Assembly (NCBI GenBank): GCA_001799575.1 | Contig: MGTT01000017.1 | Coordinates: 3,735 to 61,361 of the forward strand | DNA length: 57,627 nt | From: Elusimicrobia bacterium GWA2_56_46 | Lineage (GTDB): Bacteria > Elusimicrobiota > Elusimicrobia > Elusimicrobiales > UBA9959 | Direction of reading: 5' to 3' | Part shown: piece by piece, positions 21,503 to 31,178 of the stretch | How the letters are laid out: every line of letters starts with the position of its first letter | Numbering within the stretch: position 1 is the stretch's first letter | Position numbers and translations under genes: made by a program | The notes under the pieces: generated by a model | Databases searched by the model: none | What the model saw: the letters and a program-made list of their open reading frames with translations, nothing else | What the model was told of the DNA's origin: nothing

Positions 21503-22195
21503 CTACTTGTCGGCCCATTTATAGCCGAGTCCCGTTACCGGCTCAATGCAGTCCGCGTAACGCCCCAGTTTGGATTTCAGCCGGTGAATCGTCACTTTTA
21601 TGGTGTCTCTCGTAGCTATGGCGTTTAATCCCCAGACGGCTTCCGCTATAAACGCATATTCCAAAATACGCTCTTCCCGTCTGAGAAACATCGCCAGCAG
21701 GGCGAATTCCTTGGGCAGAAGATCCGCTTTTTCCCCGTCCACAGTGACATCGCCGGTGTCGAAATTTAGAGTGAGGCCTCCGGAAACAAGAACCTTATCA
21801 GTTTTCCCCTGGTGATAACACCGGCGCAGGAGCGCGTCGATGCGGGCCAGCAGCTCATTATTCGAACACGGTTTTACGATGTAATCGTCGGCGCCGGTTT
21901 TCAGGGACTCCACTTTATGAAATTCGTCCCTTACGGAGGTAAGCATTATCAGCGGAATGCTGGCGGTTACAGGGTCATCTTTCAGTATTTTACAGAACTG
22001 CATACCGGAAAGACCGGGCAGCCCCATGTCCGAAATTATCAGTTCCGGTTTATGATCTTTAAGCCACTCAAGCGCGCTGTTGGCGTCGGTAAAGGCTATA
22101 GGAAAGTGTCCGGCTTCCGTTAAAAGGCCGCATACCAGAGCGGAAATATTTTCATCGTCCTCTATTATTAAAATTTTTGCTTTCGAGATCGGCAT
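21503..22195 (-). CDS. OmpR/PhoB-family response regulator
   Basis: A 230-residue two-domain regulator. The receiver (about 5-120) has the acidic pair in IIEDDEN, the phosphoacceptor Asp in LIISDMGLPGLSG, the Thr/Ser switch in IMLTSVRDE, and Lys in YIVKPCSNNEL. The C-terminal winged helix (about 135-228) has LLPKEFALLAMFLRREERIL and RDTIKVTIHRLKSKLG. It should bind tandem direct repeats; the 11-bp repeats at 29570-29613 are a candidate target. AAGGCGG lies upstream of the ATG. No cognate kinase is adjacent. Confidence 0.92.
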   Translation of the reverse strand: MPISKAKILIIEDDENISALVCGLLTEAGHFPIAFTDANSALEWLKDHKPELIISDMGLPGLSGMQFCKILKDDPVTASIPLIMLTSVRDEFHKVESLKTGADDYIVKPCSNNELLARIDALLRRCYHQGKTDKVLVSGGLTLNFDTGDVTVDGEKADLLPKEFALLAMFLRREERILEYAFIAEAVWGLNAIATRDTIKVTIHRLKSKLGRYADCIEPVTGLGYKWADK

Positions 22196-22341: not shown

Positions 22342-25300
22342 TTATTTCACCACGGAGACCTTTTTTATCTTCTTCTTGCCGTCATGCTCGAAGTAAACCA
22401 GGTACAGGCCGCTTGCCGCTTTCCGCTCCGCCTTGTTGCGTCCGTACCACACGGCAAGGCCTGCGGAGTTGGCTTTCCCCTCCCACACCAGTTCACCGTT
22501 CAAGGTGTAGATCTTAACAGTAGTCCCCTCCGGCACGCCGTCCAGGCTCACCTGCGTATGGCCCTTATTGGGATAGAACGGGTTGGGATAGATCCGTGCG
22601 CTGTCCAGGTTGGTGCCGGCGGCCAGTACCATCACCTGGAACAGGGAGAAATGGGTGGTCCGTCCGGATACTGTGTTCCGCTCGGGATAAGACACGGACT
22701 CAAGGGGTATCCAGCCCCTGGAGCTCTCATCGTAGCGGGCGAGCACCAGCTTTGTGCGATCCACCCCGGCCATTTCGGCGTCGGTATAGGTAACCTCCAA
22801 AGTGGCCGCTTTCGCGGGCTGCACCGCCTGATCAAGGGTTATCTCCAGACCTACGCCGGTGGACTTAAGGCCCCCGTTCTGGACGGGATCCACGGGGGGC
22901 AGAGCGTTAGGCACCTTTAAGCTCAGCACGACTTCGCCGGCAAAGGACGCGGCCGGGATGCTGACGCTCATCGGGCGCTCTATAGCGGAATTACTCGCTA
23001 TCAGCGCCGCGCTGGCGGGAACGACAGTGCTTACAGCCACTACTCTGCCGGACTGTGAAGCGTCTTTTGAGACCGTGACGCGTACAACAGCGCTGCTTCC
23101 GATATTGCCCGCCGCATCGTAGGCTCTGGCCTGTAGAGTGTGCTGTCCGTCCGCGACCGTGCTGAAGTTCCAGGGGAAAGCATACGGAGGCGAAATCGCC
23201 GCGCCCAATAGCGCGCTGTCGGCGTAAAACTCGACTTTGGTTACTCCGACATTGTCGGAGGCGTCGGCCGTAACGGCCACGACATTCGACGGCTTCTGCT
23301 CCGCGAGCGCCCGGTAGGCGTTGATCCTTCCATAAGTCCAATACGTGCCGGTTCCGGGGATGTATTCGGCGGAGGCTTCGATCTGTTTGCGGACGCAGAC
23401 GTTATCGGAGCATATCCCGCTGGACCAGATCATGGCGGCCAGGCCGGCGACGATAGGAGAGGCGTAGGATGTGCCGTTGCCGGTTTCATAGCCGTCCACG
23501 GCCGTGGGATAGACGGACGCGGAAAAGACCGCGGCGCCGGGGGCGGCGACGCTCACCCAGGAGCCGTGGTTGGAGAAAGAGGCCTTCGCGTCATCCTTGT
23601 CGGTGGCCGCCACCGAGATGACGTTTCCGTAGGCCGCCGGATAAAATTTAGCGTTCGTGTTGCTGTTCCCGGCCGCGGCGACGATGACCGCGCCTTTTGA
23701 CCAGGCGTAATTTACCGCGTCTTCCAGCGCGGCCGAGTAGTTGCTGCCCCCCAGGCTCAGGTTGATAACCTTGGCGCCGCCGTCCGCCGCCCACCGCACC
23801 CCTTCGGCTACCGCGGAATAGGGGCCCGAGCAGTTGTCCGATAATACCGTTACGTCCAGCAGCGGGGAGTTGTACGCCACGCCCGCGCCGCCTTTCCCGT
23901 TGTTGCCGCTGGCGGCCGCAAGGCCGGCCACGAAAGTGCCATGTTTGCAGCCGGTCGCGCCCGCGAACACTTTTCTCGCGCTTACCTTTCCGGTGAGATC
24001 GGGGTGGCTGTCCGCGACGCCGGAGTCCACGATGGCTATTTTTACGCCGCTGGCACCGGCGGTCATGTCCCAGGCGCTTGCCTTCGTCCCGGCGGCCGCC
24101 GTTATGAAGAGATGCCACTGTTTGTCGAGGAGCGGGTCGTTCGTGCGGCCCACGGCTTGCGCGATATAATCCGGCTCGGCATAGAGGACGTCCGGATCCT
24201 GCGAGTAGCTACGGACGGCGTCCAGCACGGTGCCGGAGGCGACGCGCACGATCTGGACATCTATGCCGGAGATCTGTGAGACCGCGCTTGTGCCGGCGGC
24301 GGCGTGGGCGGTTCTCATGGCCGCGGCGCCCAGCCCGGACTTGAACTTGACCAGCACGGTGTCGGAGATAAAGTCGGAGGGGTCGGCGGACGAGAGCGTG
24401 AAAGCGGTCCGGGCAGGCTCCACATAGGCCGCCGGGCCGGACTGGGTCCCCCGCGCCGGAACGACCGCCCAGTCGGAGGGCGAGGTGATCTTTACGGAGG
24501 GTTTGGCGGTGTCCGCCGCGGCGGCGGAGGAATAGGCCGAGAGATTTCCGGCACCGTCATAGGCCCGTATCCGCGCGTGATACGTGGAACCCGCGACCAG
24601 CCCGGCCGCTCTGGTGGATACCACCAGTCCCACATCCCGGTTTTTCCACCCCGCCACGTAGCTAGTGAAGCCGCTGTCTGGAGAAATATCCACCCTATAT
24701 CCCTCCAATTCGCTTCCGCCGTTGTCCGTGGCGGGATCCCAGGACAGAGTTATGGAACGCTCGCCTTTTGCGAGGGCCGGATTTCGCGGAGCGGACGGCG
24801 CGGTATGATCCAGATACCCTTCTACGAGGGTATAGCCGGAGTTGTATTCGCCTGCGAACTGCGGATTGAATTTGGGATTCCCGGACTTTTCCCGTGTCGT
24901 ATAAAGCACATATTCCGCCAGTTCTCCCAGTTCAACGCCGCCGTTGCGCTGTTTCCCCTCAAAGCCGTCGCCCGATCCGCTTATTCCGGTCCAGACCGCG
25001 TAGGTAAAAGAGTTGCCCACGTTGGGATCGCCGGTCGCGCCGGAAAGTTGTTCGGCCGAAACGGCCGTCAAAACGACCAGGTTCCTTCCTGAGCGGCTTC
25101 GTCCCTGCCAGGATCCGGGCGACGCTTTTAGCGCGTCCGCAAGATATCCTGAATGGCACGCCATGGTAAGCGCTATTACGTCGCGCGCCGGAAGGCCTGC
25201 GATCATACCGGCCAGTTCATTCCAGGTTATGGTCGTGGGTTCAGGCCCTGAAAAATTCAGTATTATCCCGGACGCGCCGCCGTGAGTATGGGAATACATG

Positions 25301-28300
25301 ACGAAAGTATCGTTGGGTCCCAGGTTCGCTTTATAATATGCGAGGCGGCTCTTGATGGAGGCTACGCTGACCTGGCTGGCATCGCTGATGATCTCCGTTT
25401 CAAAGGCCGGACGCGCCATTGAGCCGAAAGCGAACGCCACTTTGGCGACCGATTGTTTCATCCGGGCGGTCTGGTCGGGAGGGTCGTCCGGTTTGGAAGT
25501 GCCGAAAGCGAACAGTATCCTCCGCCGGCTTGTTTCAGCCGAAACCGTTCCGCTGTATGGCGAAAGGTTGCCGTTCCCGTCGCGGGCACGTATGCGGGCG
25601 TAGTAAACGGTTCCGGAAATAAGTCCCGCGGCCGTGAGGGATGTGACAAGGCCGACATCCTTGTTCTGATAGCCTGCGGCGAAAGAGGAAAAATCTGGCG
25701 AAGAAGATATATCCATCCGATACCCGGCCAGGCCGCTGCCTCCCGCGTCCGTGGATGCCGACCAGCTAAGATCAACACTCCGGTCTTTTCCCGTGGCCCG
25801 CAATCCCGTTGGCGCCGAAGGCGGCGTAGAGTCTATGGATGACGATATGGGCGTAGCGGTAAGGGAGAGCGCGCTTGCCTCGACATCGTTCGAATATCCC
25901 CCCCAGATCTCCCAGCCCAGAAGAATCTGGGATACATGATAATCCGACGTGTTGAAGGACTGCCCGTAGTTGGTTTTCAGGGCTTTCAAAGCGTTCGTCA
26001 GTATCTCGATCGCGTCCACCGAATAGTCCACTCTCTGGCCGCGTTTAAGCGACGGATATAGGGGGGAAGAATAGACTACCTGTCCGAACTGATCCGGCAT
26101 GATCCACTCCGCGTTGTTCACATGAGACGTCCCGTCCTCGGAGTAAAACATCGGCACGAGGGCGAAGATCGTATTCGCGTTGATCGTTCCCCCTGTGGAA
26201 GGCACTGTCTTGGTAAGCACGAATGTCATGTAGAAAAGCTCATGGTTCGGGAAGGATGTGCTCCAACTGCCGCCAGGGCACTGCTCTCCTGTTTTCGCGC
26301 TGTTGTTCAGGAGTATAGATCCGGAAAATAGCATCTTGCTGTATCGTCCGACACGGAATTTACCCTGGGAATCGGTGGGATCCTTGATGTCCTGTCCGAT
26401 CAGAAAATGCGGCCAGTTCGTCGCCGGATCGCCGTATTTAGGACGGGCGCCGTTCTGATCCGGAAGCGACAAATTACACCCGGATCGCCACTCTTTGGCG
26501 GTATCAATGCGCCACCCGATCCTGCCGCCGCCGTAATTGAGGAATTGCTTCGAGCCATCGCTTGAGCTGTAGGTCATCGGAGAGGAGCCAGAGGGAGTAG
26601 CCGGATTGTCGCAGAAGTATGTTTTTTCGGCTATTTCCCAAAACAGCCAGCTGGCGTTTGAGAGCGACGGGCTTCTGGCCGCCCATCGGGATTTGCAGAT
26701 GGTATCTTCCGCATCCGGATATGTATTAGCCCAGCCATGCTGCACGCCGAGAGCGAATGAAGGATCGGCGAACAACTGTCCGGATACGGGCGCGTTCCCG
26801 CTGGTGACGGCCGTGACCGACGCTGATTGCGCGGACACGTTGCCCGCCGCGTCGTAAGCGGCCACAGTGTAGGAATAGGCGGTGGAAGGCGACAAACCTG
26901 TGTTCTGGAACGATGTCCCGGCGCTGGTTCCTATCTGCGCGCCGCCCCGGTACACCTTGTACCCCGCGACGCCGGTGTTGTCGGTAGAAGCGGCCCAACT
27001 GAGGTTGATCTGCGAGGAAGAAACAGCCGAGGCATTAAGTCCCTGCGGAGCGGACGGTGGCGTTATGTCCTGCGTAACATTGTTCACCGTAATACTTACA
27101 GAGGCGCTGATCCCGATATTGCCCGCCGCGTCGTAGGCCTTCGCCTGCAGGCTGTGCACTCCGTTTGCCAACGGCTTAGTGTCCAGCGTGAATGAATACG
27201 GACTTGCGGTATCGGTATTCTTCAACACCCCGTCCAGATAAAACTCCACCTTCGAAACGCCGGTATTGTCGGAGGCGTTGGCCGATATGGTTATGGTTCC
27301 GGAAACGGTGGAACCGTTGGCCGGCGCGGTTATGGATACCGTCGGCGGCGTGTCTACGGGCGCAGCGCAGGTAATCGTGTTTATTGAATTAGGATTGGAC
27401 AACAAGGCAAGCGGAACGCTCCCGACTACCGCGCCGTTGGCGTTTATACTACCGACGTAGGGATATAGAACGTGGCGTCTGCCATCTTTCAACGATGCCG
27501 GCGTTGAAAATACGAATCCGTGCGCCGCGGAGCCGCCGCACTGCTGCGCCACGCCGGCTTCGCGCGCGGCGTTGGCGGTAACATTTCCAAGCAGGATCCC
27601 CTGCCCTGCCGGGCCGTCCGCGTAGAAAGTAACCGTCAAGGCGGATGGATACCTGTCCGGATCGCACACCCACCCTACGCTCGCGTTGCAATCCGAACCT
27701 TCGTGCCAACCCACCGGCGCCGCGTCCCGTACGACGTTGTTCACCGTAACGCTTATAGAGGCGCTGGTTCCGGCATTGCCCGCGGCGTCGTAGGCTTTAG
27801 CCTGTAGCGTATAAACGCCGTTCGACACCTGCGTAGTATCCAGCGGGAACGAATACGGCGCCGCCGTAAGCGTCTTTATCAACACGCCGTTGGAATAAAA
27901 CTCCACTTTAGAAACACCCACATTGTCGGAAGCGCTGGCGGATATGGTTATACTGCCGGAAACAGCGGCTCCGTTGGCCGGAGCGCTTATGGCTACTGTG
28001 GGGGCTGTGGTGTCCGCGGCGGCACAGGTGAAAAACTGCGCGGCCGGAGTCGCCGGCCGGACCAGCAATGGGTTATCGTTTGAGTCCGGGTTAATACCGT
28101 AAACATAGATTTGGTGCGTTTTACCGTCTTTCAACGAAACCGGCGTCGCGAAAGAGAACCCGTGATTAGAGTACCCGCCGCATTGGGCTCCGACAGCGGC
28201 TTCACGGACCAGATTGGCGGTGCTTTCCCCCAGGAAAGTGCCAGAGGGGTGAGGCGCATCCGCGTAGAAGTGCACCTTGATCGGCGTGGAATAATGATCC

Positions 28301-28470
28301 GGGTCGCAGGCCCAGCCCAGGCTCACCTCGCAGGTCGAGACATCGTGCCAGCCCTTGGGGATCTGGTCCGCGGCGGCATTTGCCGCCATGATGAGCGTCG
28401 CCAATAAAGTGAAAAGGCCGGCCAGGCATCCGCGCGGATAATTAGTTTTACAGTCACGTTTTATTCTCAT
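22342..28470 (-). CDS. Giant secreted protein with clan-CD-like cysteine peptidase, subtilisin domain, Ig/FN3 modules and type IX-like C-terminal tail
   Basis: A 2042-residue exported protein. In order: signal peptide (about 1-35); two copies of a Cys-containing ~115-residue module beginning GWH with GWACDPD or GWVCDPD, each followed by an Ig-like domain (VSKVEFY, LQAKAYDAAGN); FN3; a ~320-residue unrecognised Cys-rich region; FN3; a caspase/legumain-like domain with His in MYSHTHGG (near 1062) and Cys in MACHSGYL (near 1104); FN3; an S8 domain with propeptide-like DTVLVKFKSGLG, Asp in IVDSGV (near 1480), His in KHGTFVAG (near 1511) and Ser in GTSYASPIVAG (near 1670); Ig-like; a ZU5-like segment; and a tail with IYPNPFYPN and ASGLYLVYF, ending in a Lys-rich strand. 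The tail resembles type IX sorting domains. It lies 30 bp after a PorV-like gene. Confidence 0.85.
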   Translation of the reverse strand: MRIKRDCKTNYPRGCLAGLFTLLATLIMAANAAADQIPKGWHDVSTCEVSLGWACDPDHYSTPIKVHFYADAPHPSGTFLGESTANLVREAAVGAQCGGYSNHGFSFATPVSLKDGKTHQIYVYGINPDSNDNPLLVRPATPAAQFFTCAAADTTAPTVAISAPANGAAVSGSITISASASDNVGVSKVEFYSNGVLIKTLTAAPYSFPLDTTQVSNGVYTLQAKAYDAAGNAGTSASISVTVNNVVRDAAPVGWHEGSDCNASVGWVCDPDRYPSALTVTFYADGPAGQGILLGNVTANAAREAGVAQQCGGSAAHGFVFSTPASLKDGRRHVLYPYVGSINANGAVVGSVPLALLSNPNSINTITCAAPVDTPPTVSITAPANGSTVSGTITISANASDNTGVSKVEFYLDGVLKNTDTASPYSFTLDTKPLANGVHSLQAKAYDAAGNIGISASVSITVNNVTQDITPPSAPQGLNASAVSSSQINLSWAASTDNTGVAGYKVYRGGAQIGTSAGTSFQNTGLSPSTAYSYTVAAYDAAGNVSAQSASVTAVTSGNAPVSGQLFADPSFALGVQHGWANTYPDAEDTICKSRWAARSPSLSNASWLFWEIAEKTYFCDNPATPSGSSPMTYSSSDGSKQFLNYGGGRIGWRIDTAKEWRSGCNLSLPDQNGARPKYGDPATNWPHFLIGQDIKDPTDSQGKFRVGRYSKMLFSGSILLNNSAKTGEQCPGGSWSTSFPNHELFYMTFVLTKTVPSTGGTINANTIFALVPMFYSEDGTSHVNNAEWIMPDQFGQVVYSSPLYPSLKRGQRVDYSVDAIEILTNALKALKTNYGQSFNTSDYHVSQILLGWEIWGGYSNDVEASALSLTATPISSSIDSTPPSAPTGLRATGKDRSVDLSWSASTDAGGSGLAGYRMDISSSPDFSSFAAGYQNKDVGLVTSLTAAGLISGTVYYARIRARDGNGNLSPYSGTVSAETSRRRILFAFGTSKPDDPPDQTARMKQSVAKVAFAFGSMARPAFETEIISDASQVSVASIKSRLAYYKANLGPNDTFVMYSHTHGGASGIILNFSGPEPTTITWNELAGMIAGLPARDVIALTMACHSGYLADALKASPGSWQGRSRSGRNLVVLTAVSAEQLSGATGDPNVGNSFTYAVWTGISGSGDGFEGKQRNGGVELGELAEYVLYTTREKSGNPKFNPQFAGEYNSGYTLVEGYLDHTAPSAPRNPALAKGERSITLSWDPATDNGGSELEGYRVDISPDSGFTSYVAGWKNRDVGLVVSTRAAGLVAGSTYHARIRAYDGAGNLSAYSSAAAADTAKPSVKITSPSDWAVVPARGTQSGPAAYVEPARTAFTLSSADPSDFISDTVLVKFKSGLGAAAMRTAHAAAGTSAVSQISGIDVQIVRVASGTVLDAVRSYSQDPDVLYAEPDYIAQAVGRTNDPLLDKQWHLFITAAAGTKASAWDMTAGASGVKIAIVDSGVADSHPDLTGKVSARKVFAGATGCKHGTFVAGLAAASGNNGKGGAGVAYNSPLLDVTVLSDNCSGPYSAVAEGVRWAADGGAKVINLSLGGSNYSAALEDAVNYAWSKGAVIVAAAGNSNTNAKFYPAAYGNVISVAATDKDDAKASFSNHGSWVSVAAPGAAVFSASVYPTAVDGYETGNGTSYASPIVAGLAAMIWSSGICSDNVCVRKQIEASAEYIPGTGTYWTYGRINAYRALAEQKPSNVVAVTADASDNVGVTKVEFYADSALLGAAISPPYAFPWNFSTVADGQHTLQARAYDAAGNIGSSAVVRVTVSKDASQSGRVVAVSTVVPASAALIASNSAIERPMSVSIPAASFAGEVVLSLKVPNALPPVDPVQNGGLKSTGVGLEITLDQAVQPAKAATLEVTYTDAEMAGVDRTKLVLARYDESSRGWIPLESVSYPERNTVSGRTTHFSLFQVMVLAAGTNLDSARIYPNPFYPNKGHTQVSLDGVPEGTTVKIYTLNGELVWEGKANSAGLAVWYGRNKAERKAASGLYLVYFEHDGKKKIKKVSVVK

Positions 28471-28500: not shown

Positions 28501-29547
28501 TTATCTGAAGAAGTAAGCCAGCCTGTCGTCATCGGCATTGCGTTTCGCGGTTCGCTGCCCGTATCTGTTGTATTTGCTCTCCGCGTCGCTGCGCGCGCCG
28601 CCGAATTTCATCGTCAGCGAGATCCGGTGCGCGATCCCGAGATCCCCGAACGGAACCACCGCGTAATCCACGGCCATATTCTTCACCACCACCCCGAGTC
28701 CGCCGCTTATGCCGTTTATCCCGGAGATATCGCCCATGGTAAGACTGTTGGCGCCGAAGCGCAGCAGCACGCGCATATCGTCGTCTTTATAGGCAGTATG
28801 CTCCGTCCCGGCGCAGAGATACGGGGCGTTGCCGCGGGGCGCCACGAGATCCGCGGCGATAAGCCAGTTTTTGGCTATACTCAGCGCGCCGCCCGCTTTA
28901 AAGGTAGTGGGTAACGGATCGCTTTCTTTATCGAACTTCATACCGCCGCCCAGGTTCTGCGCCACCAGGGCGAGCCTTAAAACCTTACCCCCCACGCCGG
29001 TCTTGGCGGATATCCCGGCGTCAAAAGCGAAAGCGCTGGCTTTTTCTATGATCTTGGAACTTATATATTTACCGCTTATCCCGGCCTGGTAAGCCCCCTT
29101 CTCCGCGCCAAGGGCCTCCAGGTCGGCCGCGTAGGACAGGGTGCCGGCGTAATCTCGGGGCTGGTAGTTCCCCAGGCTGTTGCCTGAGGCGTCCGTATGC
29201 TCCACACTGCCCCCGTTCATATAGGCGACCGCGCCGCCGAACGCGGAAGAGCCGTTTGAATGGGTGAACGAGAGGTAATCAAAGCTTATATCGGCCAGGT
29301 AGCTTGAGTGCATGAACATCACCGAAAGCTCCGGCGCGCGCACAAGGCCGGCGGGGTTCCAGGATACCGCCGAAGCGTCCGCGGCCACCGCCGAGTACGC
29401 CCCTGACATTCCCACCGCCCGGGCGCCCATTCCCATAGTGAGGAACGCCGCCCCGGTGGTGCCTTTGGCGCCGGAATTAAAATCCCCGGCCGCCAGGTTT
29501 GTCCAGGCGGCGAGGGTGGCTATCAGCAGGGCGGCCAGGGTCTTCAT
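28501..29547 (-). CDS. PorV/PorQ (UPF0164)-like outer-membrane beta-barrel protein
   Basis: A 348-residue protein with a signal peptide (MKTLAALLIATLAAWTNLAAG). The N-terminal signature is GAAFLTMGMGARAVGMSGAY then DASAVSWNPAGL, followed by alternating barrel-like strands to RISLTMKFGG. This pattern is typical of PorV/PorQ-type 14-strand barrels. In type IX secretion PorV carries cargo tails to the surface attachment complex. The gene directly downstream encodes a protein with such a tail, so they are likely partners. A -10 box ends six bases before its ATG, with four 11-bp repeats upstream. Confidence 0.82.
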   Translation of the reverse strand: MKTLAALLIATLAAWTNLAAGDFNSGAKGTTGAAFLTMGMGARAVGMSGAYSAVAADASAVSWNPAGLVRAPELSVMFMHSSYLADISFDYLSFTHSNGSSAFGGAVAYMNGGSVEHTDASGNSLGNYQPRDYAGTLSYAADLEALGAEKGAYQAGISGKYISSKIIEKASAFAFDAGISAKTGVGGKVLRLALVAQNLGGGMKFDKESDPLPTTFKAGGALSIAKNWLIAADLVAPRGNAPYLCAGTEHTAYKDDDMRVLLRFGANSLTMGDISGINGISGGLGVVVKNMAVDYAVVPFGDLGIAHRISLTMKFGGARSDAESKYNRYGQRTAKRNADDDRLAYFFR

Positions 29548-29741: not shown

Positions 29742-31178
29742 ATGAGACTGAAGACCGTTTTTTTTCTGAGTCTGGCGGCGATGGCCTCGCCGGCGGTGTT
29801 CCTCGCCGGCGCGTGGAGCGCGGGCCGCCATAATTGCATCCCTGGCATTTTAATCGTGGTGGCGGCGGCGGGATTCGCTTCGGCCCTGGCTTTTTCGGCG
29901 CTGGTTTTTAAGCGCGTTCTCCGGCCATTGAACGACATGACGGACGCCGCGCGGCGATTTTTCAACGCGGGTTACCGCCTTGACGCGGTTATTCCGCGGG
30001 CCGGCCGGCCGGAGCTCCGGGATCTCGCCGGCTCGCTCAACCGCATGATGCTTGAATTGCAGTCTTACCGCGCTTTCCAGATCAGCCAGATAATGGAAGA
30101 AAAAAACAAGGCCCAGGCCCTTATAGACACCATCTCCGACGGTGTCATCCTGGTGGATGAGCTGGGCGGGATCATCTATTCCAATCAGGCGGCGCTCGCC
30201 CTGCTGGGAATACCCAGGGTGTCACCGGAGGTGGTTCTCCCCGCCGCCATAAAAAACGAGGTCTTTGCGCGGGAATTCGCCGCCATCCTGGCTTCCGGGG
30301 AAAAATTTTTAAGGTCGGAAGCGGAGATAAAGCTTCCAGCGGCCCCGGAAGACGGGGAGCCGACGGTCAGGAATTACGGCATTATGGCGAGCCGGTTCTT
30401 CCTTGCCACTCTCAAACGCCAGGGCCGTGTGGTCATACTGCGCGACATTACCAACGAAAAAGAGCTTGAAAAAACAAAAGAGGCCTTTTTCCACATGATA
30501 ACGCACGATATGCGGTCGCCGCTGGCCACGATCCAGGGCTACGCGGAAATCCTGAGGCGCAAGCTCCCGCAGTCCCCCGAGACGGAGAAGTATTTCAAAA
30601 GCATGGTTTATTCTTCCAGGCGCCTGCGCGGCATGATAGATGACATCCTTAATACCACCGATCTGCAGCGGGGCGTCATGGCGATGACGCTGGAGAAGGT
30701 CTGCGCCAACGCCCTGATAGCGCGTGTCGCAGAGCAGCACGAGCCTGTGACCACTCCCAAGAAGATCACGGTGAGCATACAGCCTTTGCCGCAGGAATTG
30801 GAATTTATCGCCGACGCCGCGCTTATGGAACGGGTTCTGACCAACCTTGTTCTCAATGCTCTCCGATCCACCCCCGCCGGAGGAACCATCACCCTTGGCG
30901 TTTCCCAGGACGCGGAGAACGTGCTGTTCTGGGTCGGGGACACCGGGCCTGCCATGCCCGATGACAAACGCGGGACGATTTTCGAGCAATATTCACGGAT
31001 GGAAAAGCAGAGCGGCCAGAGCATGGGACTTGGTCTGGCTATGTGCAAGATGATGGTGGAACTTCATAAAGGCCGGATCTGGGTGGAATCTGAAGCGGGC
31101 AAAGGCAGTAAATTCCTCTTTACGATTTCAAAGAGCCTTAAGGCTTCAAGCGCATCTCAAGCGAAAACGCTTGATTGA
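29742..31178 (+). CDS. Membrane sensor histidine kinase (HAMP-PAS-HisKA-HATPase)
   Basis: A 478-residue kinase. Two transmembrane segments (about 5-24 and 34-56) enclose a very short periplasmic loop. Then come HAMP-like (about 57-110), PAS (about 125-235), HisKA with phosphoacceptor in HMITHDMRSPL (near residue 252), and HATPase with N box NLVLNALRSTPAGG, G1 box VGDTGPAMPDD and G2 box GLGLAMCKMM. The G1 box differs from the usual DNGPGI. The short loop suggests membrane or cytoplasmic sensing. A receiver gene follows, so the two may form a pathway. No clear ribosome-binding site is visible. Confidence 0.92.
   Translation: MRLKTVFFLSLAAMASPAVFLAGAWSAGRHNCIPGILIVVAAAGFASALAFSALVFKRVLRPLNDMTDAARRFFNAGYRLDAVIPRAGRPELRDLAGSLNRMMLELQSYRAFQISQIMEEKNKAQALIDTISDGVILVDELGGIIYSNQAALALLGIPRVSPEVVLPAAIKNEVFAREFAAILASGEKFLRSEAEIKLPAAPEDGEPTVRNYGIMASRFFLATLKRQGRVVILRDITNEKELEKTKEAFFHMITHDMRSPLATIQGYAEILRRKLPQSPETEKYFKSMVYSSRRLRGMIDDILNTTDLQRGVMAMTLEKVCANALIARVAEQHEPVTTPKKITVSIQPLPQELEFIADAALMERVLTNLVLNALRSTPAGGTITLGVSQDAENVLFWVGDTGPAMPDDKRGTIFEQYSRMEKQSGQSMGLGLAMCKMMVELHKGRIWVESEAGKGSKFLFTISKSLKASSASQAKTLD

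Follow-up and report, generated by a model that had tools for sequence, protein, structure and literature searches.

A clan CD domain and an Ig-nested subtilase in one exported modular protein of an Elusimicrobiota bacterium

Gingipains and other cargo proteases of the Bacteroidota type IX secretion system combine a signal peptide, Ig-like modules and a type A sorting tail with a protease domain of either clan CD or family S8, and in the examples known to us each polypeptide carries only one of these kinds. Two unrelated proteases within one bacterial polypeptide are described for alphaproteobacterial conflict systems, in which trypsin and S8 domains flank a NucA nuclease and a proteolytic cascade has been proposed (PMC7159879). 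In polymorphic toxins, in turn, processing domains of caspase-like or subtilisin type lie inside the chain (PMC3482391).

The window analyzed here, a stretch of 57,627 nucleotides from Elusimicrobia bacterium GWA2_56_46 (phylum Elusimicrobiota), encodes a protein that combines two enzymes, each of a known kind, in one chain. Translation of an open reading frame on the minus strand gives 2042 residues, which run from a signal-peptide-like start, clear by eye, through Ig/fn3 repeats, a clan CD domain, a fervidolysin-type prodomain and an S8 domain to a type IX-like sorting tail. The features, in chain order after the upstream neighbor, are as follows.

28501..29547, minus: PorV/PorQ-family outer membrane protein, 30 nt upstream on the same strand (NF033709)
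22342..28470, minus: exported modular protein of 2042 aa with two protease domains (ORF and domain search)
28369..28470, minus: signal-peptide-like N-terminus, aa 1–34, basic, then hydrophobic, then ANAAADQ (read by eye)
27733..28365, minus: repeat unit 1, aa 36–246, cysteine-containing domain plus Big_7 Ig (Pfam)
27061..27732, minus: repeat unit 2, aa 247–470, cysteine-containing domain plus Big_7 Ig (Pfam)
26800..27060, minus: fn3 domain, aa 471–557 (PF00041 at 473–553)
25831..26802, minus: domain without family assignment, aa 557–880 (Pfam, PDB and phylum-genome searches)
25534..25830, minus: fn3 domain preceding the clan CD domain, aa 881–979 (Pfam)
24811..25533, minus: clan CD (caspase–hemoglobinase fold) domain, aa 980–1220 (relatives, alignment, structure model)
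25282..25284, minus: predicted catalytic His1063 (motif, invariant column H84)
25156..25158, minus: predicted catalytic Cys1105 (motif, invariant column C126)
24505..24807, minus: fn3 domain following the clan CD domain, aa 1222–1322 (Pfam)
24460..24516, minus: first strand of a Big_7 Ig, aa 1319–1337, separated from the rest by the prodomain–S8 insertion (profile and shuffle tests)
24169..24402, minus: fervidolysin-type prodomain, aa 1357–1434 (PF22148, E 3.7e-14)
23305..24150, minus: S8 subtilase catalytic domain, about aa 1441–1722 (Pfam, motifs, thermitase alignment)
23065..23298, minus: rest of the split Big_7 Ig, aa 1725–1802, profile positions 18–70 only (profile)
22351..22593, minus: type IX (T9SS) type A-like C-terminal sorting domain, aa 1960–2040 (PF18962, TIGR04183)

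An earlier note, drawn from the sequence alone, had proposed two unrelated protease domains in a single exported polypeptide, and this is borne out by Pfam, tblastn relatives, alignments, a structure model and the thermitase alignment. The S8 motifs lie at 1480–1485 (IVDSGV), 1509–1516 (KHGTFVAG) and 1666–1672 (GTSYASP), those of the clan CD dyad at 1059–1065 (YSHTHGG) and 1103–1110 (MACHSGYL); the spacing of about 420 residues given in the note agrees with the 419 that separate His1063 from Asp1482. Absent from that note were the type IX-like tail, the PorV-family neighbor, the nesting of S8 in an Ig domain and the domain at 557–880.

The signal-peptide-like start, Ig-like modules and type A-like tail are common to this protein and the Bacteroidota cargo proteases, but here both protease kinds occupy one chain, the phylum is a different one, and a C25 sortase was not found. 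The alphaproteobacterial proteins likewise join two unrelated proteases, yet pair S8 with trypsin rather than clan CD and place a nuclease in between, and in the section consulted they are described with neither an exported scaffold of Ig/fn3 modules nor a sorting tail (PMC7159879). Two-protease bacterial polypeptides of the trypsin–S8 type are thus already known, and the combination of clan CD with S8 is a variation on them. Like polymorphic toxins, the protein is large, exported and modular and has a caspase-like domain in its interior; unlike them, it contains both proteases and a C-terminal sorting tail and has no recognizable toxin domain (PMC3482391).

Within the N-terminal scaffold, the two repeat units are 59% identical. 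The domain at 557–880 found no match in Pfam, the PDB or 340 other genomes of the phylum; together with the N-terminal Ig/fn3 modules, it probably serves in binding substrate or the cell surface.

The clan CD domain

Clan CD peptidases, exemplified by legumain (C13), caspases and metacaspases (C14) and gingipains and PorU (C25), have the same dyad layout and fold as residues 980–1220. The isolated domain matches Peptidase_C13 (PF01650) weakly, at E 0.036 and 14.0 bits against a cut-off of 22.8, in an alignment spanning exactly the His/Cys region. Neither Peptidase C14 (PF00656) nor C25 (PF01364) was matched in the full protein, in the isolated domain or in a search of the organism's own genome; the same C25 search does detect such domains elsewhere in the phylum, in two genomes. 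Assignment to C13, C14 or C25 was rejected because no Pfam cut-off was reached; placement in clan CD, with no family assigned, is supported by sequence comparison and by the model.

Relatives of the domain were found by tblastn among 341 genomes of the phylum, down to E 6e-7, and their SGHG and DxCxSG motifs line up with His1063-Gly and Cys1105. Within YSHTHGG, the aligned histidine is His1063, not His1061. The His, the Gly that follows it, the Cys, the Ser and the Gly of the two motifs all fall in invariant columns, whereas two positions ahead of the catalytic Cys this domain has a Met in place of the acidic residue of the known families (Asp in its C14 relatives). One relative, L080, exceeds the Peptidase_C13 cut-off, and others exceed that of Peptidase_C14. 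L080, L081 and L082, from the same family of Elusimicrobiota, and L145, from the organism's own genome, are secreted-looking, stand-alone C13-like proteins whose His/Cys motifs align and whose nearby sequence is similar; each is a single domain of about 265–309 aa with neither S8 nor sorting tail, about 24% identical overall. A phylogenetic tree shows no specific grouping of these proteins with the domain studied here, which sits on a long branch of unsure placement.

An AlphaFold2 model built from a six-sequence alignment is of moderate confidence (pLDDT 64.3, pTM 0.69) and places His1063 and Cys1105 directly after strands 76–83 and 118–124 (domain numbering). With this model, the best Foldseek match has an E of 9e-6, and structure comparison gave Z scores of 13.3–15.7 over 174–194 residues among the 50 matches listed, the listed PDB entries being clan CD proteins: metacaspase 4 (Z 15.7), legumain (Z 14.6), and GPI transamidase and SAVED-CHAT (both Z 14.4). 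A single-sequence model was poor (pLDDT 40.7) and was left out of structure matching. The earlier note had read a clan-CD-like dyad from the sequence and suggested comparing a predicted structure with clan CD folds. The dyad motif stands, upheld by the aligned relatives, the weak C13 match and the structure matches, and the resemblance to metacaspase and legumain supports a caspase-like fold; relatives, alignment and fold together reject a chance motif match. The domain is best described as a predicted cysteine protease that would use His1063 and Cys1105.

The combination of this domain with S8 was not found in the 340 other genomes of the phylum, whose large S8 proteins contain no clan CD domain and whose large clan CD proteins lack a GTSxAxP serine motif; nor was such a polypeptide found in searches of open-licence papers. 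No other species was found to encode the protein. Scans of genome contigs with the clan CD domain alone as query, of plasmids by tblastn, and of viruses with alignment A2, the domain itself, L081 and L079 gave no matches, and a viral scan with alignment A3 gave two distant ones. Followed through its PorV neighbor, the locus leads to genome G112, where different reading frames and then the end of the contig come after a PorV that is 60% identical, and no protease ortholog was found.

The subtilase and the Ig domain around it

The second protease is unambiguously an S8 subtilase by sequence. It matches PF00082 at E 2.1e-41 (142.6 bits, cut-off 21.8) and aligns with thermitase along its length (E 6e-66). 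The catalytic residues, Asp1482, His1510 and Ser1668 with the oxyanion Asn1602, are aligned and lie in their proper motifs; the complete triad of the earlier note is thereby confirmed. What the note had called a propeptide-like segment is a recognized prodomain, Fervidolysin_NPro-like, of the same family as that of fervidolysin-type subtilases.

In contrast to thermitase and fervidolysin, prodomain and S8 here are nested within an Ig domain of a 2042-residue chain that carries another protease upstream. The half that follows S8 matches Big_7 positions 18–70 alone, with 56.1 bits; when the residues before the prodomain are added, the match extends over positions 1–70 and rises to 71.2 bits. Compared with the first Ig of the protein, the piece preceding the prodomain scores above 5000 of 5000 shuffles. 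Prodomain and S8 are inserted in one Ig, between its first strand and its remainder, and therefore normal removal of the prodomain would break the polypeptide at a point that lies between the clan CD and S8 domains. Such removal would leave a split Ig that could clasp or release them.

The sorting tail and its PorV-family neighbor

The tail exceeds the curated cut-offs of both PF18962 (28.1 bits, cut-off 27) and TIGR04183 (28.0, cut-off 23), and the gene upstream exceeds that of NF033709 (142.8 bits, cut-off 90). This pairing recurs: of 20 genes with such tails in this genome, 10 have a PorV-family gene no more than 1 kb away, where 0.5 would be expected, and tails adjoin PorV at more loci in this and related genomes. 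The genome has 26 PorV-family matches, with 14 proteins over the cut-off, and tails and PorV are widespread across the phylum. On the evidence of these searches the type IX-like route is not complete: SprA-like matches, in one 1807-aa frame, are partial and below cut-off, and a C25 (PorU-type) sortase was not found in this genome. The location at the cell surface suggested in the earlier note gains indirect support from the tail, the adjacent PorV-family gene and the genome-wide pairing, which point to a protein that is probably surface-bound.

Proposed processing and roles of the two proteases

Our overall reading, for which belief and doubt weigh about equally, is of a two-enzyme extracellular protease, exported by a type IX-like route, whose S8 domain splits the chain by a self-cut and whose Ig domain forms a clasp. 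Sec would take the protein out of the cytoplasm, and the type IX-like route, acting through the C-terminal sorting domain, would bring it to the cell surface with the PorV-family protein as likely shuttle. The thermitase-like S8 would be held inactive by its own prodomain until a self-cut at about residue 1440, where the N-terminus of mature thermitase falls. Given the insertion of prodomain and S8 within a single Ig, this cut would yield two chains, an N-terminal one carrying the clan CD protease and a C-terminal one carrying S8 and the tail. The Ig, to which one chain contributes the first strand and the other the remainder, could keep the chains joined or open, and opening would release the N-terminal chain; both proteases would then act on extracellular protein. 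The S8 cut would separate the proteases in the chain, and the split Ig could equally keep them together. Quite unlikely is a stricter version, an ordered two-protease program in which S8 maturation turns the Ig into a two-chain clasp that first holds and then releases the caspase-like protease from the surface. The earlier proposal that one protease activates or releases the other found no direct support, and an S8 with its own prodomain should mature by itself.

The two enzymes could instead be functionally unlinked, digesting extracellular protein independently on one scaffold in the manner of a modular hydrolase. Elsewhere in the phylum, each is found in the absence of the other, and the clan CD domain sits between paralogous fn3 domains (55% identical to each other), resembling an exchangeable cassette. 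Retention of a full S8 prodomain, however, leads us to expect some processing link, since its removal would cut between the proteases, and leaves this alternative possible but doubtful. Improbable, in our view, is a clan CD domain that cuts its own polypeptide to activate or release the S8 part, as in large exported or polymorphic toxins: it is internal and upstream of another enzyme domain, and for polymorphic toxins an auto-processing role of internal caspase-like domains has been proposed (PMC3482391), but the S8 prodomain makes such help unnecessary, and neither a cut site nor a cofactor-binding segment was identified. Slightly more improbable still is a clan CD domain that is catalytically dead or turned into a binding or regulatory module, with S8 as sole protease. 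Activity could have been lost or changed, because the domain is divergent, on its long branch, lacks the Asp before Cys and falls below every family cut-off, and loss of the dyad does occur, as in the relative L014 of the same phylum, where SGPG replaces SGHG; against this stand the invariant catalytic motifs. PorU is a clan CD enzyme that itself bears a sorting tail. That the domain replaces this known sortase (PMC5121618), missing from a genome rich in tails and PorV genes, as a sorting or transpeptidase enzyme is barely credible, for many members of the phylum have tails and PorV whereas the protein was found in this species alone, and the stand-alone L145 would be an equally good candidate.

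The locus places a caspase-fold protease in an exported, probably surface-bound, protein alongside a subtilisin. Bacterial relatives of caspases have mostly been discussed in the context of stress responses and cell death. The locus also points to a type IX-like export route in Elusimicrobiota, with numerous pairs of cargo and PorV genes and no C25 sortase found in this genome; to our knowledge, type IX secretion has been little described in this phylum. Should the two enzymes be functionally linked, the protein would offer a compact natural case of zymogen control by chain layout, in which maturation of one protease separates, or clasps, a second.

Layout of the polypeptide

The protein is encoded by a single uninterrupted open frame of 2042 residues (window 22342-28470, minus strand) in a source genome of 2.66 Mb that is 98.8% complete. 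Its domains are arranged as follows.

Domains of the 2042-residue protein (residue numbers; minus strand of the window)
N-terminus: signal-peptide-like start, judged by eye
36-246: repeat unit 1, cysteine-containing domain and Big_7 Ig
247-470: repeat unit 2, cysteine-containing domain and Big_7 Ig
471-557: fn3
557-880: domain with no Pfam or PDB match (window 25831-26802)
881-979: fn3 preceding the clan CD domain
980-1220: clan CD domain
1222-1322: fn3 following the clan CD domain
1319-1337: first strand of an Ig
1357-1434: fervidolysin-type prodomain (PF22148)
about 1441-1722: S8 (PF00082)
1725-1802: remainder of the split Ig
1960-2040: type IX-like sorting tail (PF18962, TIGR04183)

The two repeat units are 59% identical, and the fn3 domains on either side of the clan CD domain are paralogs with 55% identity. 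A stretch lacking a domain assignment separates the split Ig from the sorting tail.

Two protease domains in one chain

The S8 domain matches PF00082 with an E value of 2.1e-41 and retains all catalytic residues (Asp1482, His1510, Asn1602, and Ser1668). Its closest solved sequence relative is thermitase (E 6e-66), in an alignment spanning the catalytic domain. The preceding segment, described in an earlier note as propeptide-like, matches a known prodomain family (PF22148, E 3.7e-14). From an NDP motif at residues 1444-1446 and the known N-terminus of mature thermitase, we take that N-terminus to correspond to about residue 1440, and an S8 self-cut is therefore expected nearby.

The same note had proposed a domain with a clan-CD-like dyad. 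In isolation, this domain matches Peptidase_C13 below cut-off (E 0.036), over the His/Cys stretch. Relatives with E values down to 6e-7 were found among 341 genomes of the phylum Elusimicrobiota, to which the source genome belongs, and their alignments place His1063-Gly on an SGHG motif and Cys1105 on DxCxSG; of the related proteins, L080 passes the Pfam cut-off for C13, and L079 and L015 that for C14. A structure model built from a six-sequence alignment has a pLDDT of 64.3 and a pTM of 0.69, with ten-residue means of 85-91 in most strands and helices leading to both motifs and of 71 in the blocks containing His and Cys. Each of the two residues directly follows one of two neighbouring strands, in the order expected of the fold. 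PDB matches listed by Foldseek comprise metacaspases, MALT1, caspases, GPI transamidase, and legumain and its kin; a second structural alignment gave Z scores of 15.7 for metacaspase 4, 14.6 for legumain, and 14.4 for both GPI transamidase and SAVED-CHAT. Together, the aligned motifs of the relatives and the structural matches of the model support a caspase-like fold, assigned at the level of the clan and to no family within it.

A second clan CD protein is encoded in the same genome (L145:2578-3453); it is a stand-alone, secreted-looking, C13-like protein of 292 aa, and further genera of the same family have counterparts of it. In a tree, the clan CD domain studied here does not group with it, but lies on a long branch. 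Elsewhere, a C14-type relative (L014) has SGPG instead of SGHG at the catalytic histidine and is probably a dead copy.

The survey for the combination covered 341 phylum genomes, including the source genome, and absences hold at the sensitivity of the matches listed and the frames fetched. Among the matches listed, no second protein with clan CD and S8 domains was seen, the clan CD and S8 searches share no other frame, and none of the other 340 genomes yields a match to domain 557-880. Likewise, no clan CD domain occurs in the large S8 proteins fetched from the phylum, nor a GTSxAxP motif in the large clan CD proteins fetched.

The divided Ig and the probable route of export

Without its beginning, the Ig downstream of S8 matches only positions 18-70 of Big_7 (56.1 bits). 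The missing first strand was found ahead of the prodomain, and joining these residues to the downstream part yields a match to positions 1-70 (71.2 bits). Compared with the first Ig copy, the short upstream piece outscores 5000 of 5000 shuffles; compared with the second it does less well, and 19 of 5000 shuffles reach its score. These comparisons are most simply read as the insertion of a prodomain-S8 cassette into an Ig. No truncated Big_7 follows S8 in the S8 relatives examined, a set from which a motif filter had excluded some relatives.

At the C-terminus, the sorting tail exceeds the cut-offs of PF18962 and TIGR04183, and a PorV/PorQ-family gene lies 30 nt upstream of the protease gene (142.8 bits; cut-off 90). 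Genome-wide, there are 20 frames with a tail match (15 of them above cut-off) and 26 matches to the PorV family; 10 of the 20 tails have a PorV-family gene no more than 1 kb away, versus 0.5 expected, a count that excludes the present gene, whose PorV adjoins its start rather than its tail. This pairing suggests cargo with private PorV-type partners, and close relatives of the upstream PorV at other loci likewise adjoin tail-bearing genes. A 1807-aa frame carries two partial SprA-like matches, below cut-off. No C25 domain was found in the genome by a search that detects C25 in two other phylum genomes, and hence no PorU of known kind. The tail and the PorV pairing make surface delivery likely, with its machinery accounted for only in part by the SprA-like matches and the C25 result.

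Two very long open frames of this genome have matches to the tail: one of 6,998 residues has an above-cut-off tail (C20:113856-114101) and adjoins a PorV-family match, and one of 17,613 residues has a partial match below cut-off (C11:39513-39659). The PorV-protease pair itself is flanked by a HAMP/PAS/HisKA sensor kinase (29742-31178, plus strand) and an OmpR-type response regulator (21503-22195, minus strand).

Comparison with known systems and proposed working

A bacterial polypeptide with two proteases has a precedent in PMC7159879, where trypsin and S8 domains flank a NucA nuclease, whereas here S8 is joined to clan CD. Polymorphic toxins have been described with caspase-like processing domains in internal positions (PMC3482391), and a survey of prokaryotic caspase homologs reports many fusion architectures; its main text, figures excluded, contains neither "subtilase" nor "trypsin" (PMC3501461). 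No report of a clan CD-S8 polypeptide was found in the open-licence literature. Each of the two enzymes is of a known kind, and it is their combination in one chain that would be new.

Removal of subtilase prodomains by self-cutting is established. By this behaviour and the domain layout, the protein would most likely first be exported, and S8 would then mature itself near residue 1440. This cut would fall C-terminal to both the clan CD domain and the prodomain, so that the clan CD protease would end up on an N-terminal chain, and S8 with the sorting tail on a C-terminal one. Of the note's two suggestions, activation or release of one protease by the other, release is thus plausible, as the self-cut would separate the two, while activation finds no support. 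The divided Ig may hold both chains together, or may free the N-terminal chain.
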